Shown piece after piece: positions 2,176 through 34,737 of a stretch of 41,293 bases of DNA. Within the stretch, counting starts at the first letter, position 1, and the number at the start of each line of letters is the position of its first letter. The position numbers and the translations under genes were made by a program. A model generated the notes under the pieces. That model had not been told where the DNA came from. It was given only the letters and a program-made list of their open reading frames with translations, and did no database searches. Origin of the DNA: Candidatus Crickella equi (GTDB lineage: Bacteria > Bacillota > Clostridia > Peptostreptococcales > Anaerovoracaceae); assembly GCA_018064755.1 (NCBI GenBank), contig JAGHUP010000005.1, positions 1 through 41,293 on the forward strand, given 5' to 3'.

Positions 2176-3702
2176 TTATTCTTTAAAGTCTTTGATTAAG
2201 AGGGCTTCTTTGCGTAGTCCGCGGGTTAAACCTAGGACGGCGCCTATTTCTACAAATATGAATGGGAAGGCTCCGACTATTGCCAATGTTTCCATTGTAG
2301 TGAGAGCATCTGTACTTCCTATCATAAGTACGATTGCGAAGGCTCCTTCCAAGATGCCCCACATCAGAAGAGTTTTCTTGGATGGATCCATTGCTCCGTT
2401 TTCGCTGAAGATACCGAGTACTATTACTGCTGAGTCTGCGGAGGTTATAAAGAAGGTGCATACCAGAATCAAAGTGATAATTCCCATCAATTTGCCGACT
2501 AATCCATAATGTCCAAATACCAAGAAGCAGGAGAGGGCTTCGTTGCCTGCTGCCTGTTCGATAATAGCCTGAGTTGACTCGAGACCCATTGGCGCGAGCA
2601 CTGCAAACCAGAGGAAGGTGAGAAGTGTTGGCACGATGAGGACTGCCACGATGAATTCTCTGATGGTTCTTCCCTTGGAAATTCTAGCGATGAATGTTCC
2701 TACGAATGGGCCCCAGGATACCCACCAAGCCCAGAAGAAGATGGTCCATTTTGCACTCCATGTGTTGCCTGGCAGTCCGACATAGAGGGAGTCTCCAACT
2801 ATGTTCTGGAGATATGCGCCTGTTGCATCTGACAGTATGTGCAGGTCAGTAAGTGTAGGGCCGATAATAAATGCGAGCGCCATCAGGATGAATACGAACC
2901 ATACATTAAGCTTGGCTATGAGGTCTATTCCTTTCTCAATTCCAGATACCGCAGCTGCTGTGAAGATAATTGTAAATGATGCAATGATTGCAATCTTCAT
3001 TGCGTTGTTCTCTGGAAGTCCAAAAATATAGTGGAGGCCTGCGTTAATCTGCAATGTTCCGATACCGAGTGAGGAAATCTTGCCGAGTACTGTCGCTACT
3101 ATCGCAAGAATATCGATTGCTTTGCCGAGCCAATTGGTAGCCCATTTTTCTCCAATGATAGGAATGAAGATGCTGCTGATAAGACCTGGTTTGCCCTTGC
3201 GGAACTGCATATAAGCGAGGCCGAGTCCAATAACGCAGAAACATGCCCAAGGGTGAAGGCCCCAGTGGAAGAATGAGGTCTTAACTGCCCAGACTTTGGC
3301 ATCCCAAGCGGCCTCGGCCGTTGTACCCATGCCTCTATACATATACTGTTGCAGTGGTTCAACGATGGCAAAGAATACCATTCCAATGCCCATTCCTGCT
3401 GAGAAGAGCATTGAGAACCATGAGAATGTGCTGTATTCCGGTTCGCTATCATCAGGTCCGAGCTTAATCTTGCCATACTTACTGATTGCTATGTACAGGC
3501 ACCATACCAGAAATGCGGCAACGGACATTATATATAACCATCCGAATTTACCTGTAAGAAAATCAAAAGCTGAGTTAGTCATGTTGTTGAAACTACTAGA
3601 GCCAGCGAATGCCCATACAACCAGGATGAGGAAAATTGTCATCGAGATGGTGAATACGGGATTCTTAAAAACGTTGGTAGTTTGCTTGTCGTTCTCATTC
3701 AT
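2176..3702 (-). CDS. BCCT family betaine/choline/carnitine-type transporter
   Basis: This is a 508-residue membrane protein predicted to have 12 helices, the usual BCCT fold. Recognisable motifs are GMGIGMVFFAIVEPL (glycine-rich TM3 region) and the family signature WAWWVSWGPFVGTFIARISKGRTIREF, which carries the Trp box of the substrate pocket. Substrate cannot be read from sequence: glycine betaine, carnitine and choline are all possible. The ATG at 3702 is preferred because GGAGG lies just upstream and overlaps an earlier in-frame ATG at 3717. The gene is divergent from a PucR-type regulator, which may control it. Its 3' end is followed by palindromic copy A. Confidence 0.93.
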   Translation of the reverse strand: MNENDKQTTNVFKNPVFTISMTIFLILVVWAFAGSSSFNNMTNSAFDFLTGKFGWLYIMSVAAFLVWCLYIAISKYGKIKLGPDDSEPEYSTFSWFSMLFSAGMGIGMVFFAIVEPLQQYMYRGMGTTAEAAWDAKVWAVKTSFFHWGLHPWACFCVIGLGLAYMQFRKGKPGLISSIFIPIIGEKWATNWLGKAIDILAIVATVLGKISSLGIGTLQINAGLHYIFGLPENNAMKIAIIASFTIIFTAAAVSGIEKGIDLIAKLNVWFVFILMALAFIIGPTLTDLHILSDATGAYLQNIVGDSLYVGLPGNTWSAKWTIFFWAWWVSWGPFVGTFIARISKGRTIREFIVAVLIVPTLLTFLWFAVLAPMGLESTQAIIEQAAGNEALSCFLVFGHYGLVGKLMGIITLILVCTFFITSADSAVIVLGIFSENGAMDPSKKTLLMWGILEGAFAIVLMIGSTDALTTMETLAIVGAFPFIFVEIGAVLGLTRGLRKEALLIKDFKE

Positions 3703-3856
3703 CGGGTTGTCCTCCATTATTTATTGCTTAACGCCCAAAAAGAACCGGCGGGGACCGATCCTATGGGTGATCCCCAAGGGGGAACAATTATATTATTAGC
3801 TATACTCACATATTAGTGTATGAAACGCTCTCTGTATATGTTCATGCTGTTGTCAT

Positions 3857-10967: not shown

Positions 10968-12233
10968 ATGGCAAGAGATAACGAACTTGTATGCTCATTC
11001 TGTGGCAAAACAAGCTCTCAGGTTAGAAAGATTATTGTTGGTCAGGAGGCGTATATCTGCGACGAGTGCGTAGCTACATGCCAGGAAATCCTTGAAGAGG
11101 AAAGAGTAATCAAAAATGCACCCGTTAGGAACGGGCTGAGGGGTACATTACCTACACCTGAGGAGATTAAGGCGACTCTCGATGATTATGTTATCGAGCA
11201 GGACCCAGCCAAGAAGAGCCTTGCGGTTGCAGTTTACAACCACTACAAGAGAATTAAGTATATTGAAAAGGGACTCAGAGAGGGCAGAAGAGCTGACGAT
11301 ATCGAGCTGCAGAAGAGTAATATTCTGATGCTCGGACCTACTGGAAGCGGTAAGACTTTGCTCGCACAGACTCTGGCAAGAGTTCTTAATGTTCCTTTTG
11401 CCATTGTTGATGCTACATCGCTGACTGAGGCTGGCTATGTAGGAGAAGACGTTGAGAACATCCTCCTGAGACTGTATCAGGCTGCTGATGGCGATCTGAA
11501 CAGAGCTCAGAGAGGCATTATCTATATCGACGAAATCGACAAGATTGCGCGCAAATCAGAGAATATGTCCATCACTCGTGATGTAAGCGGTGAAGGCGTA
11601 CAGCAGGCTCTCTTGAAGATCATCGAGGGCACCGTAGCCAACGTTCCACCACAGGGTGGTCGTAAGCATCCGACCCAGCAGTTCATTCAGTTTGACACCA
11701 AAGAAGTATTGTTCATCTGTGGTGGTGCTTTTGCTGGACTGGATAAGATCATCAAGACAAGACTGGGCAACAAGGTAATCGGATTCAATCAGGATGACGA
11801 TAGCAAGGATCTGTCCAATGACGATATTCTGCTGAAGGTTGAGTCAAGCGATCTGCTGAAGTTCGGACTGATTCCGGAACTGATTGGAAGACTGCCTGTA
11901 ATTGTTGCGCTGTCTGAACTGTCTGAGGATGCGCTGGTTCGTATTATTAAGGAGCCTAAGAATTCCATTATCAAGCAGTATCAGAAACTGTTCGAGATGG
12001 ATGGCGTTGCTCTCGAAGTGGAGGAGGAAGCTATCAAGGCTGTTGCTGACAAGGCATTACAGCTGAATACAGGAGCTAGAGGTCTCCGTGGAATCTTCGA
12101 GCAAGCTATGACAGATATAATGTATGAGCTGCCTTCTAACAAGGATGTTGCTAAATGCATTATTACTAGAGATGTAATTGAGAATGGCGAAGAGCCAATC
12201 TATGAGAAGAGAGAAATAAAAGAAGAAGCATAA
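10968..12233 (+). CDS. clpX: ATP-dependent Clp protease ATP-binding subunit ClpX, with repeat-derived linker
   Basis: 421 residues. The N-terminal zinc-binding domain has Cys9, Cys12, Cys31 and Cys34. The AAA+ module has Walker A GPTGSGKT (123-130), Walker [12 protein letters not shown], the RKS-type loop and the ClpP-docking IGF motif (GNKVIGFNQ). Oddities: residues 49-60 ([12 protein letters not shown]), in the linker between the two domains, are encoded by a half copy of the palindromic repeat family (11112-11147), and the usually conserved YVIGQ reads YVIEQ (74-78). The frame is intact, so the protein should be functional. Confidence 0.97.
11112..11147 (+). repeat. Palindromic repeat half copy (copy D) translated inside clpX
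   Basis: Thirty-six bases match the right arm and flank of copy B (21917-21952) at all but two positions. The stretch runs from AAAAATGCACC to GGGGTACA. The changed version can itself fold as CCCGTT-AGG-AACGGG. It is read in frame as clpX codons 49-60. Element insertion into a tolerant linker is the simplest reading; capture of a coding stretch by the repeat is the alternative. Confidence 0.85.
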
Positions 12234-20491: not shown

Positions 20492-21835
20492 ATGACTAAA
20501 GCTGAGAGAATTGAACTTCAGACCCAGCAATTGGCTGAAATGCGTGAGCGTGAGCACGAGCTGCGCGCTCGCGGCAAGAGGTTCGTTGCAGGCATTGATG
20601 AGGTGGGTAGAGGCCCACTGGCTGGTCCTGTATACGCAGCTGTTGTTGTAATGCCTGATGACTGGGAGGTTCTTGGTGTTAATGATTCCAAAAAGCTAAG
20701 TGCCAAGAAGAGAGAAGAGCTCAGCCAGTTGATCCGCGAGCGCGCCGTTGCCTACGGCATCGGCATCGCTGACAACCACGAGATTGACGAGATGAATATT
20801 CTCGAAGCAACTAAGACAGCGATGGCTCGTGCGATAGCAAACTGTAATGCCAAACTTGAAGAACAATATGGTAGTGGCATTGACTATCTCTTAATCGATG
20901 CAGTCAAGCTACCTGTAGATATTGAACAGGAGTCAATTATCAAGGGCGATGCTAAATGCCTCTGTATTGCTGCAGCAAGCATCGTTGCCAAGGTAGCAAG
21001 AGACTCCTATATGGAAGAAATGGATGAACAGTATCCGGGATATGATTTTGCCGGTAATAAGGGCTACGGAACCGCGGCGCACTACGCCGGCCTTAGAGAC
21101 CTTGGATACACACCAATACACAGAAGAAGTTTTCTCAAAAAATTCGAAGAAGAACAGGCCGGCGAGCGCGCCGCTGCCTGGGGCAATGGAGTAACTATGG
21201 CTAAGAAAGTATACGCTGTCAGAAAGGGCAGAACTACTGGAGTTTTCACCGACTGGGATTCATGCAAAGCACAAGTTGATGGCTTCCCGGGAGCTGAATA
21301 TAAGAGCTTTGTCAATCCGCAGGATGCACTCGAATACCTTGGCCTTGCAACAGCGGGTCAGACCCAAGTTGCAGGATTGCAACAAGGGGACAGTCCTGAC
21401 TTTGACAGTAGATACCAGGATAAGGTTCGCGCATATGTGGATGGCAGCTATGATGATGCAAGTGGAATGTTCTCCTGCGGCGTAGTTTTCATCAATAAGG
21501 ATGCCAAACCGATTGAGTTGAATAAAGCTTTCGATAATCCTGGCCTTGCCGAGCATCGAAATGTTTCCGGTGAGGTAATGGGCGCGATGGAGGCGATTAA
21601 CTACGCACTTGAGCACGGACATTCGGAGCTGACGATATTCCATGATTACGAGGGAATCGCTAAGTGGGCGAATGATGAATGGAAAGCAAATAACACTTTG
21701 ACCAAACACTATAAGGAGTTCGTAAAGACGGCAAGAATCCACATAAAGATAGACTTTGTCAAAGTTGCCGCACATACCGGAAATAAGTACAACGAAATGG
21801 CAGATAAATTAGCAAAAGAAGCGCTGGGATTGTAG
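20492..21835 (+). CDS. Fused ribonuclease HII - hybrid-binding domain - ribonuclease HI
   Basis: 447 residues. Residues ~1-222 are RNase HII: GIDEVGRGPLAGP (Asp36, Glu37), LLIDAVKL (Asp136), KGD (Asp153) and GYGTAAHY. Residues 236-285 are an RNase HI-type hybrid-binding domain (KKVYAVRKGRTTGVFTDWDSC). Residues ~312-447 are RNase HI with Asp317, Glu361, Asp385 and Asp438 all present, plus AHTG. Both halves look active. Residue 236 is a Met (ATG 21197) preceded by TGGAG at 5 bases, so a separate 212-residue RNase HI could also be made. Confidence 0.95.
   Translation: MTKAERIELQTQQLAEMREREHELRARGKRFVAGIDEVGRGPLAGPVYAAVVVMPDDWEVLGVNDSKKLSAKKREELSQLIRERAVAYGIGIADNHEIDEMNILEATKTAMARAIANCNAKLEEQYGSGIDYLLIDAVKLPVDIEQESIIKGDAKCLCIAAASIVAKVARDSYMEEMDEQYPGYDFAGNKGYGTAAHYAGLRDLGYTPIHRRSFLKKFEEEQAGERAAAWGNGVTMAKKVYAVRKGRTTGVFTDWDSCKAQVDGFPGAEYKSFVNPQDALEYLGLATAGQTQVAGLQQGDSPDFDSRYQDKVRAYVDGSYDDASGMFSCGVVFINKDAKPIELNKAFDNPGLAEHRNVSGEVMGAMEAINYALEHGHSELTIFHDYEGIAKWANDEWKANNTLTKHYKEFVKTARIHIKIDFVKVAAHTGNKYNEMADKLAKEALGL
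21197..21835 (+). CDS. Possible internally initiated RNase HI isoform
   Basis: In-frame ATG with upstream TGGAG at proper spacing inside the fused rnh gene. The product begins MAKKVYAVRKGRTTG, exactly like stand-alone bacterial RNase HI proteins with an N-terminal hybrid-binding domain. This suggests that two neighbouring genes were joined by loss of the first stop codon and that the second start was kept. Whether it is used is not shown by sequence. Confidence 0.5.
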   Translation: MAKKVYAVRKGRTTGVFTDWDSCKAQVDGFPGAEYKSFVNPQDALEYLGLATAGQTQVAGLQQGDSPDFDSRYQDKVRAYVDGSYDDASGMFSCGVVFINKDAKPIELNKAFDNPGLAEHRNVSGEVMGAMEAINYALEHGHSELTIFHDYEGIAKWANDEWKANNTLTKHYKEFVKTARIHIKIDFVKVAAHTGNKYNEMADKLAKEALGL

Positions 21836-21851: not shown

Positions 21852-21878
21852 GTGTTACAATATTAAATAACTATGTAA

Positions 21879-21952
21879 TGCGCCATTTAGCCCGTTCCTA
21901 ACTGGTGCAGAATTCCAAAAATGCACCAGTTAGGAACGGGCTGAGAGGTACA
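21879..21952. repeat. Palindromic repeat, copy B, in the leader of the alarmone synthetase gene
   Basis: Perfect 21-base arms (21889-21909 and 21922-21942, core AGCCCGTTCCTAACTGG) enclose a 12-base loop. The outer ends (TGCGCC/GGTACA) pair only partly. It is followed at once by CAAAAGGAGA, the ribosome binding site of the gene at 21968. In RNA this would be a very stable hairpin close to the SD. Confidence 0.92.
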
Positions 21953-21967
21953 AAAGGAGAATGTTAA

Positions 21968-22669
21968 ATGGCTTTTAGATATTACAATGCAGAGCGAGTC
22001 AGAGAGAGAATGCCTCAGTTCAGAGGTACAGATGAAGAACTCCAGTCTGCAATTGATGATATTAGTTTGAGATACAATTCGGCACTGAAAGAGCTTGAGA
22101 CCAAACTGGAGATTCTGTCAGATGATTTTGACAAGAAACACTCCTATACGCCGATTCATCATATTCAGTCGAGACTTAAGACTTTCGACAGTATTCTTGA
22201 TAAAGCCGTGAGATACGGCATCGAGGATCCTATCAACAACCTTGATGTCGTTACAAGAGAAGTGCTTGATATTGCGGGCGTTCGAGTCGTGTGCAACTAT
22301 GAATCAGATATGCACACAATGAGCAATTTGCTCCTCGATCAGGAGGACATCGAGCTCATCAGAGTTAAGGACTACTGTTCCAATCCTAAAGAAAGTGGAT
22401 ACAGAAGCCTGCACGTGGTTGTTTCGATTCCGGTTTATCTGGTTAACACCAAGAAGATGGTACCGGTTGAGATTCAGTTCCGCAGCATCGTAATGGATGC
22501 CTGGGCAAGTCTGGAGCACGAGCTGAGATATAAGAATAAGGGCGAACTCACAGAGGATATTCAGAACGAACTTAAGGAGTGCGCAGATATTCTTACCAGC
22601 GTTGACAAACGAATGGCTAGAGTAAGAAACGAAGTTATCGCAGAAGATAACGAATATGAGAAATATTAA
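21968..22669 (+). CDS. Small alarmone synthetase, GTP pyrophosphokinase (RelQ/YjbM type)
   Basis: 233 residues, synthetase domain only, with no hydrolase, TGS or ACT domain. Motifs: LDIAGVRVVCNY, KESGYRSLHVVV (G-loop), VEIQFRSIVMDAWASLEHELRYK, typical of RelP/RelQ proteins that make (p)ppGpp from ATP and GDP/GTP. It is framed by two copies of the palindromic repeat. The SD AAAGGAGA directly follows copy B. The cell would need a SpoT-type hydrolase elsewhere. Confidence 0.93.
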   Translation: MAFRYYNAERVRERMPQFRGTDEELQSAIDDISLRYNSALKELETKLEILSDDFDKKHSYTPIHHIQSRLKTFDSILDKAVRYGIEDPINNLDVVTREVLDIAGVRVVCNYESDMHTMSNLLLDQEDIELIRVKDYCSNPKESGYRSLHVVVSIPVYLVNTKKMVPVEIQFRSIVMDAWASLEHELRYKNKGELTEDIQNELKECADILTSVDKRMARVRNEVIAEDNEYEKY

Positions 22670-22670
22670 A

Positions 22671-22742
22671 TGTACCTCTAGCCCGTTCCTAACTGGTGCA
22701 TAAATCAAAAATGCACCAGTTAGGAACGGGCTAAGAGGTGCA
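22671..22742. repeat. Palindromic repeat, copy C, in the leader of valS
   Basis: Outer ends TGTACC/GGTGCA and 23-base perfect arms (22679-22701 and 22711-22733) with a 9-base loop. It starts immediately after the alarmone synthetase stop codon and ends one base before AAAGGAGA, the SD of valS. The spacing to SD is the same as in copy B. Confidence 0.93.
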
Positions 22743-30990: not shown

Positions 30991-31049
30991 TATAGTACAG
31001 AGGACTGTCCCAAATCTGACATTTTCGACAGATATGGACCGGCCCGGTT

Positions 31050-32144
31050 TTACACATTAAAGAGGAAGTGTACGACGTCGCCGTCTTTAACTTCGTATTC
31101 TTTACCTTCGGAGCGGAGCCAGCCTTTTTCCTTGGCAGCGGAGAGTTTGCCTTCGCATTCCATGAGCTTGTCGTAAGCGATTGTTTCAGCTCTGATGAAG
31201 CCCTTTTCAAAGTCAGTGTGGATCTTACCAGCTGCCTGTGGAGCGAGGGTTCCGCGGCGAATTGTCCAAGCTCTTGTCTCGTCTTCTCCTGTAGTGAGGA
31301 AGGAGATGAGGTTCAGAAGAGCATATGATGACTTAATCAGTTTGTCGAGTCCGGACTCTGTAATGCCCATATCCTCGAGGAACATTGTTCTCTCTTCGTC
31401 ATCGAGCTCGGAGAGTTCTGCTTCAATCTTGGCACAGATTACTACAACTTCTGAATTCTCAGCTGCAGCGTATTCTTTTACTTCCTTAACGAAATCATTA
31501 TCAGGACCAGCAGCTTCATCTTCACCAACGTTAGCAGCGTAGATAACTGGCTTGAAAGTCAGGAGATCGAGTGTCTTAACGAAAGCAGCTTCGTCATCGT
31601 CGAGATCAATCTTACGAGCAACCTGTCCGTCAGCGAGTGCATCGTAAACCTTCTGGAGAATTACGATTTCTGATTTGGCATTCTTGTCGCCAGCCTTAGC
31701 AACTTTCTCAGTCTTGGCAATACGTCTTTCGAGCACTTCCATGTCTGCGATGATGAGCTCCATGTTAATAGTCTCAATGTCGCTAACTGGGTTAACTCTG
31801 CCGTCTACGTGAACAACATTAGGGTCCTCAAAGCAACGAACTACGTGAACAATAGCCTCAACTTCACGGATGTGGCCGAGGAATTTATTGCCGAGTCCTT
31901 CTCCCTTGGAAGCACCCTTAACGAGGCCAGCGATATCACTGAACTCGATAGTTGTGTAAATTGTCTTCTTGGAATGGTAGATGTTGGAGAGGTTGGTAAC
32001 TCTCTCGTCTGGAACGATAACCACACCTACATTAGGCTCGATTGTGCAGAAAGGGTAGTTTGCAGCCTCTGCACCAGCCTTAGTGATTGCGTTGAATAAT
32101 GTACTCTTGCCAACGTTAGGCAATCCGACGATTCCTAATTTCAT
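31050..32144 (-). CDS. ychF: Redox-regulated ATPase YchF (OLA1 family)
   Basis: 364 residues, normal length. G1 [16 protein letters not shown]3 [10 protein letters not shown], the atypical NVGED in place of NKxD that gives ATP preference, and a C-terminal TGS domain ([18 protein letters not shown]) are all visible. It binds ribosomes. The SD GGAGG is preceded at once by palindrome copy 4. Probably in an operon with lgt and the RelA/SpoT-domain gene upstream. Confidence 0.96.
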
Positions 32145-34215: not shown

Positions 34216-34292
34216 GGCGGCGTAGCTTAGTTGGCTAGAGCGTCCGGTTCATACCCGGAAGGTCACTGGTTCAAGTCCAGTCGCCGCTACCA
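34216..34292 (+). tRNA. tRNA-Met (anticodon CAT)
   Basis: Cloverleaf of 77 nt with encoded CCA. Acceptor GGCGGCG/CGCCGCT, anticodon stem TCCGG/CCGGA with CAT at 34250-34252, and TPsiC loop GTTCAAG. The first pair is G-T, unlike the unpaired 1-72 of an initiator. A CAT-reading tRNA-Ile2 cannot be excluded. Confidence 0.93.
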
Positions 34293-34296
34293 AGTT

Positions 34297-34372
34297 GGAC
34301 GCATAGCTCAGCTGGGAGAGCACCTGCCTTACAAGCAGGGGGTCATAGGTTCGAGCCCTATTGCGTCCACCA
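34297..34372 (+). tRNA. tRNA-Val (anticodon TAC)
   Basis: 76 nt with CCA. Acceptor GGACGCA/TGCGTCC, anticodon stem CCTGC/GCAGG with TAC at 34330-34332. Confidence 0.97.
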
Positions 34373-34376
34373 ATTT

Positions 34377-34453
34377 GGCCGGGTAGTTCAGTTGGTTAGA
34401 ATGCCAGCCTGTCACGCTGGAGGTCGACGGTTCGAGCCCGTTCCCGGTCGCCA
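34377..34453 (+). tRNA. tRNA-Asp (anticodon GTC)
   Basis: 77 nt with CCA. Acceptor GGCCGGG/CCCGGTC (one G-T pair), anticodon stem CCAGC/GCTGG, GTC at 34411-34413, G discriminator as expected for Asp. Confidence 0.97.
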
Positions 34454-34459
34454 AAATAT

Positions 34460-34536
34460 GGTGGGTGTCGTCAAGTGGTTAAGACCCTGGGTTGTGGCTC
34501 CAGTATGCGTGGGTTCGAATCCCTCCACCCACCCCA
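34460..34536 (+). tRNA. tRNA-His (anticodon GTG)
   Basis: 77 nt including the extra 5' G (G-1, 34460) opposite C73, the His identity element. Acceptor GTGGGTG/CACCCAC, anticodon loop TTGTGGC with GTG at 34494-34496, CCA encoded. Confidence 0.97.
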
Positions 34537-34585
34537 TATTTCTTCTTGATAGAAGTGTGGTAAAGGAATATAATTAATATGTTGA

Positions 34586-34660
34586 TGGGGTATAGCCAAG
34601 CGGTAAGGCAACGGATTCTGATTCCGTCATGCGCAGGTTCGAATCCTGCTACCCTAGCCA
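34586..34660 (+). tRNA. tRNA-Gln (anticodon CTG)
   Basis: 75 nt with CCA. Acceptor TGGGGTA/TACCCTA, anticodon stem ACGGA/TCCGT, CTG at 34618-34620. It is separated from tRNA-His by 49 bases of AT-rich spacer. Confidence 0.96.
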
Positions 34661-34663
34661 AGT

Positions 34664-34737
34664 GGTGACATAGCCAAGTGGTAAGGCCACGGTCTGCAAA
34701 ACCGTCATCCCCGGTTCAAATCCGGGTGTCACCTCCA
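34664..34737 (+). tRNA. tRNA-Cys (anticodon GCA)
   Basis: 74 nt with CCA. Acceptor GGTGACA/TGTCACC, anticodon stem ACGGT/ACCGT, GCA at 34696-34698, U73 discriminator as for Cys. Confidence 0.97.

Follow-up and report, generated by a model that had tools for sequence, protein, structure and literature searches.

The repeat copy in clpX and the palindromic elements of the window

The window analysed here, a stretch of 41,293 nucleotides from Candidatus Crickella equi (contig JAGHUP010000005.1, positions 1 to 41,293), carries a clpX gene whose linker region contains one arm of a palindromic repeat, together with three complete elements of the same type. The features that bear on this study are the following, with z scores given for folding as single-stranded DNA in comparison with shuffled sequences, all three complete elements folding better than their shuffles.

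10968–12233, + strand: clpX ORF, 421 aa, frame open through the repeat; solved ClpX chains match with E values down to 3.1e-155
11112–11116, + strand: A-run 5′ of the clpX half copy, resembling the loop end of full elements
11117–11147, + strand: single-arm (half) copy in clpX, TGCACCCGTTAGGAACGGGCTGAGGGGTACA, encoding 11 residues
About 2075–2146, unstranded: full element (z = −15.4 for 2073–2148)
21879–21952, unstranded: full element, arms 21879–21909 and 21922–21952 with a 12-nt loop (z = −10.4 for 21875–21956)
22670–22742, unstranded: full element (z = −14.4 for 22669–22742)

The first of these full elements lies 29 nt from the end of a 513-aa ORF (2176–3717, − strand). The second is located between an RNase H ORF ending at 21835 and a 233-aa ORF starting at 21968, and the third follows directly the end of this 233-aa ORF (22669), ahead of a 900-aa ORF. 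A TPP riboswitch at 901–1005, ahead of a 203-aa ORF (974–1585), was also observed in the window, as were six tRNA genes grouped at 34216–34734.

Direct comparison of bases 11112–11147 with bases 21917–21952 revealed 34 identities out of 36, the two mismatches being C for A at position 11123 and G for A at position 11141. The stretch corresponds in frame to codons 49–60 of clpX, and our recount thus confirmed the match reported in a preliminary description of this DNA, where 21917–21952 had been regarded as the intergenic repeat itself. The match is real, but that stretch is not free-standing: it comprises the right arm and the loop end of a 74-bp palindrome. The location assigned to the ClpX segment, between the zinc-binding and the AAA+ parts of the protein, was borne out by the extents of solved chains, since those of the zinc domain align to residues 7–52 or 7–45, and solved N-truncated chains start at residues 59–61.

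Abundance and anatomy of the repeat family

The assembly containing the window comprises 1,385,189 bases in 25 contigs and is 82.38% complete. A search of this assembly with the repeat core ACCNNTTAGGAACGGGCT (16 specified bases), allowing up to two mismatches, resulted in 95 matches (83 exact, nine with one mismatch and three with two), and the reversed core, used as control, gave none. A 23-base pattern, searched in the window with a tolerance of three mismatches, identified seven arms, namely the six of the three inverted pairs and the lone arm in clpX; none of 100 shuffles contained any. Examination of the stretches around the core matches resolved them into 33 inverted pairs plus 31 arms standing alone. 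One of the latter, a two-mismatch hit in a glycerol-kinase-like ORF (L179/L191), was removed as a chance match because its peptide resembles native glycerol kinases. The final set, designated family 1, consists of 63 units (33 inverted pairs and 30 single arms). These results are in agreement with the earlier view of an intergenic palindromic family that is also translated within the essential protein ClpX: the repeat is abundant in the genome, with many copies in both intergenic and coding positions.

Base counts and pairing were analysed in 62 of the 63 units (94 arms), leaving out the pair at C4:59-129. The arm spans 31 bp, with consensus TGYACCNNTTAGGAACGGGCTNNNNGGNRCA, and at each position of its 13-base core (arm positions 9–21) at least 91 of the 94 arms agree. 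Two such arms in inverted orientation, separated by a loop of 10–13 nt in 28 of 32 pairs, make up a full element of about 72–74 bp. A run of at least four A residues precedes 23 of the 30 single arms, as at the loop end of full elements. The two arms of a pair agreed at positions 3, 7 and 8 in 31, 30 and 31 of 32 cases, respectively, compared with 19.8, 15.1 and 18.8 expected from random pairing. Agreement at the outer positions 22, 23, 24, 25 and 29 was lower (18, 22, 18, 15 and 18 of 32, with expectations of 12.1, 21.9, 14.6, 11.2 and 13.2). This contrast between inner and outer positions indicates that the inner 21 bp act as a stem in which either matching changes or homogenisation preserve the pairing.

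The preliminary description had proposed that the two differences in clpX create a CCCGTT/AACGGG mini-hairpin within the arm. Only the difference at position 11123 does so. Furthermore, the C at 11123 is the commonest family variant, present in 46 of the 94 arms, and the mini-hairpin is therefore not peculiar to clpX. Across these arms, covariation was absent both between the mini-hairpin partners (positions 7–17 and 8–16) and between the end partners (3–29 and 4–28). The mini-hairpin was consequently rejected as a conserved element, the covarying stem being the one formed between the two arms. The clpX half copy folded alone as single-stranded DNA gave a z score of −2.1.

Most copies are intergenic and lie directly after stop codons or ahead of start codons. 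In two cases (L192 719–1228 and L078 1086–1706) the repeat supplies the stop codon, the ORFs ending at the TAA of the arm (..HLLARS and ..YLSARS, respectively). A second repeat family, GCAACANNGGGTCAGACC, was also detected in the assembly (62 matches with up to two mismatches vs two in the control); one of its copies is located at 21347–21396 of the window, within the RNase H ORF (20492–21835, 447 aa) and with the frame open, and a further one lies within the ComEC ORF (L188).

Distribution of the repeat among related genomes

The full 74-bp element was searched for in 59 relatives, 35 of them from the same genus, with no matches. When the core was searched with up to one mismatch, 92 matches were found in the assembly under study, in comparison with one 1-mismatch match in each of two genomes among 295 others of the family, and one such match in each of two genomes among 195 others of the class. 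No exact match to the repeat was found in viral contigs. A scan of genome contigs with this ClpX gave named matches of 65% identity at most, none of them close, and their names point to a host of the class Clostridia. The ClpX linker itself differs in length and sequence among 29 aligned relatives of the same genus, and none of these has a linker identical to that encoded in the window. Neither of the two findings named in the preliminary description as grounds for refutation was thus made. In the literature covered, for the most part outside subscription journals, we found no account of palindromic elements of this kind in Clostridia.

Repeat copies inside genes and local protein length

Palindromic repeats in genes have mostly been discussed as insertions tolerated by protein loops. 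In this assembly, 13 of the 63 family-1 units are placed in frame within ORFs, in both orientations and in differing frames. The genes involved encode ClpX, FtsK (two units), MurE, IF-2 (with a two-mismatch core), pyruvate carboxylase, TrkH, YlmH, ComEC, a heavy-metal P-type ATPase, an ABC exporter, an ORF with a Creatinase_N match that we read as aminopeptidase P, and a fusion with paired ABC_tran matches, presumably EcfA-like. Only the ComEC gene (803-aa ORF) and the P-type ATPase gene contain full elements, the other 11 coding units being single arms. Full elements thus account for 2 of 13 units in genes vs 31 of 50 elsewhere, where 19 are single (Fisher P = 0.004).

Two of these ORFs have further peculiarities. 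The frame of the aminopeptidase-P-like ORF (L189 2016–2576, − strand; 186 residues) breaks about 88 codons past its repeat copy, and homology continues in another frame, reflecting either a true break or an assembly error. The EcfA-like ORF (L190 912–2606, − strand; 564 aa) joins two ABC ATPases through a linker made up of a copy of a further repeat, designated family 3, and then the family-1 arm; repeats may have brought about this gene fusion.

Local protein length was compared with that of orthologues for seven single-arm genes (those of ClpX, MurE, YlmH, TrkH, pyruvate carboxylase, the aminopeptidase-P-like protein and the ABC exporter) and for the two full-copy genes. The orthologues came from same-genus genomes, none of them conspecific, and were about 42–79% identical over the compared segments. 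For seven of the proteins and the ABC exporter the comparison drew on 12 chosen same-genus genomes, of which only the fetched loci were aligned; four to nine relatives entered each of the seven alignments and 11 that of the ABC exporter (11 of 15 returned loci). The ClpX comparison included 29 relatives (30 aligned loci minus the ClpX of the window).

Between conserved anchors, ClpX has 16 residues in this genome, compared with 12 in 20 relatives, 13 in six, and 11, 14 and 15 in one each. Taking the most frequent length as reference, the net gain is therefore about four residues, in contrast to the plain insertion of 12 residues that had been envisaged in the preliminary description. In MurE, the anchor-to-anchor distance was 11 residues vs 12 in nine of nine relatives; in YlmH, 17 vs 18 in six of seven and 14 in the remaining one; and in TrkH, 17 vs 17 in two relatives and 19 in three. 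The distance in pyruvate carboxylase was 16 vs 12 residues in all six relatives, and that in the aminopeptidase-P-like protein 16 vs 25, again in six of six. The ABC exporter, as read from the alignment, has one additional residue in the block in comparison with 11 of 11 relatives, with further indels downstream. Altogether, the seven single-arm copies are associated with local length changes of −9 to +4 residues, vs +11 for a pure insertion (Wilcoxon P = 0.008, taking the commonest relative length for each gene and the aligned value of +1 for the ABC exporter). Judged from these alignments, the seven single-arm coding copies are demonstrably near length-neutral with respect to orthologues.

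The two full copies in genes, for which a pure insertion would add 25 residues, run counter to a length-neutral account, as both lengthen the protein in comparison with most relatives. The P-type ATPase has 28 residues at this site vs 24 in five of nine relatives (22, 27, 28 and 34 in the others), and ComEC has 71 vs 51, 57, 59 and 61.

Origin of the coding copies

The ClpX segment probably represents a single arm of a palindromic element that forms hairpins, is mobile and has expanded within this genome lineage, no copies having been found in the sampled relatives. The element would travel as a folded single strand through an enzyme acting in trans, and the copies landing in genes would persist only in linkers and loops, in a frame free of stops. 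The prevalence of single arms in coding positions may reflect that the other arm, along with some of the native neighbouring codons, was lost or overwritten, a process that would leave the protein at about its former length. For ClpX, the outcome is most likely a neutral alteration of the linker sequence.

A possible, though unlikely, alternative is that the repeat was copied directly onto existing sequence, so that around 31 bp were replaced in one step and no insertion took place. In such a replacement, a polymerase could leave a weakly similar sequence and switch template to another copy of the repeat, or the hairpin, as single-stranded DNA, could anneal to such a sequence at the replication fork. 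The net changes of −9 to +4 residues in the seven single-arm genes would be expected from this route, especially the values of −1 or 0 in most of the MurE and YlmH comparisons and part of those of TrkH, where the flanks are well aligned on both sides. In addition, the similarity of the repeat-encoded peptide to the native residues exceeds that of its shuffled versions in three of the seven genes (shuffles were as good in 0 of 200 cases for TrkH, 1% for YlmH and 3% for ClpX). On the other hand, this likeness is weak or absent in the other four (15.5% for MurE, 16% for pyruvate carboxylase, 17% for the ABC exporter and 66.5% for the aminopeptidase-P-like protein), and both full copies lengthen their host proteins as described above. 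Insertion followed by selected deletion arrives at the same end state as overwriting.

Unlike the mobile element favoured here, a recognition motif under sequence drive, comparable to the DNA uptake sequences of Neisseria and Haemophilus, would arise in place by accumulation of point mutations. Family 1 does resemble uptake sequences in being a short genome-wide motif with inverted pairs near gene ends and copies also in genes; the length neutrality of coding copies, the inverted pairs directly behind genes and the nearly invariant 13-base core would all fit. We consider this origin very improbable. Drive predicts many intermediates, but the arms showed a bimodal distribution of mismatches over the 24 specified positions (68 arms with none, 16 with one, and then 6, 2, 2 and 0 with two to five), and once arms with up to five mismatches had been masked, near-matches were no more frequent than at the level of shuffled motifs. 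Matches are thus all-or-nothing, indicating that copies arrive whole; moreover, copies have flank and loop sequence in common. Family 1 departs from uptake sequences in its 24 specified positions, in the missing excess of partial motifs and in having only 95 core matches. Drive was rejected on account of the lack of intermediates.

Little credence can likewise be given to domestication, according to which the hairpin, or a Shine-Dalgarno-like AAAGG/GAGG near its end, would regulate neighbouring genes, with coding copies as by-products. Several copies do end 0–4 bases ahead of a start codon or adjoin a stop codon, and TAA ends 8 of the 32 left flanks of full elements; but the flanking genes are diverse, copies are also found between convergent genes and within genes in both orientations, and an Rfam search with the window copies gave no family match. 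Chance resemblance of native ClpX linker codons to the repeat is scarcely credible, even though a relative's linker contains STVRNTLEGRLP, a solved ClpX chain has APHRE--RSALPTP and the weak glycerol-kinase-like match does look accidental, for the 34 matching bases cover the loop-like A-run together with each of the 16 bases specified in the core, the same DNA linker occurs in none of the 29 relatives, and the shuffle and reversed-core controls reject it.

Possible mobilisation and relationship with known systems

A single Y1_Tnp (RAYT-like) gene, encoding a Y1 transposase, was found in the 82%-complete assembly. No family-1 copies were detected in the 5 kb around it, and the gene is instead flanked, one on each side, by copies of family 3 (AAACCGGGCCGGTCC...GGGACA.TCC). 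Copies of this family were observed at positions 1032 and 2758 of L180, and at about 31036–31050 (− strand) of the window, behind the ORF 31050–32144 (− strand). Family 3 is a better candidate than family 1 as target of the Y1 transposase. Y1_Tnp genes were present in 24 of 40 genomes surveyed, including this one, while family 1 was not found in the relatives searched. As a consequence of the missing family-1 copies and the family-3 flanks, the Y1 transposase was not supported as mobiliser, and none is assigned to family 1. The assembly also contains one RVT_1 gene, presumably of the group II intron type, for which no link to the repeat was found.

At the 32 full elements, a target-site duplication was sought and not detected (mean longest flank repeat of 1.78 vs 1.45 in shuffled flanks, P = 0.11). 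Departures at 22 near-fixed positions averaged 0.21 for 19 intergenic single arms, 0.64 for 11 coding single arms and 0.36 for 66 paired arms. There was no excess of decay in single arms compared with paired ones (P = 0.68 for intergenic and 0.07 for coding arms), which fits poorly with single arms being old remnants.

Several known systems resemble family 1 in part. According to PMC10969869, Rickettsia palindromic elements (RPEs) are palindromic repeats of about 150 bp, described as insertions, that occur between genes and in frame within many unrelated genes. The likeness to these elements put forward in the preliminary description holds for behaviour, since family 1 is both intergenic and, in 13 of 63 units, in frame within unrelated genes. 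Membership is not supported. The family-1 arm is 31 bp and the full element about 72–74 bp, of apparently different sequence and in another bacterial class. Besides, the seven single-arm coding copies of family 1 that were compared add −9 to +4 residues instead of +11, replacing about as much as they add.

With REPs and REPINs, family 1 shares short palindromes near gene ends, hairpin folds, and the occurrence of singlets together with inverted doublets (33 of 63 units), REPINs being inverted REP doublets (PMC3116915). On the contrary, base counts show that the family-1 consensus lacks a GTAG or CGTC tag, although REP classes without tag are reported in PMC6006769. No family-1 copy flanks the one RAYT-like gene found, with the reservation that a second gene may be missing from an assembly 82% complete, and singlets are not more decayed than doublets, contrary to what is reported for REPIN singlets in PMC3116915. 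REPs within ORFs of several species, often dimers coding for 20–30 residues, are described in PMC3733652; as far as that description is available, the length neutrality of family-1 coding copies sets them apart. Given this division of traits, with doublets present and tag, flanked RAYT gene and decayed singlets lacking, family 1 was not filed as REPIN or RPE; by analogy, it appears to work like both, without being assigned to either. Family 1 also resembles MITEs as a small non-autonomous element with inverted repeats, and differs from them in the lack of a detected target-site duplication or an identified parent transposon.

In-frame palindromes were already known from RPEs and intragenic REPs, and family 1 differs in its length-neutral coding copies. 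The genome contains a recent-looking, lineage-restricted family with 13 coding copies, including those in the essential ClpX, MurE, IF-2 and FtsK, and the host proteins that were compared have about their former length. With conspecific strains, the question becomes testable whether such copies insert and then lose codons, or overwrite. If overwriting were true, a selfish repeat would have altered existing residues of MurE, TrkH, YlmH and ClpX through one-step substitutions of multi-residue blocks that are neither insertions nor point mutations, and proteins would acquire block substitutions from repeats of this kind.
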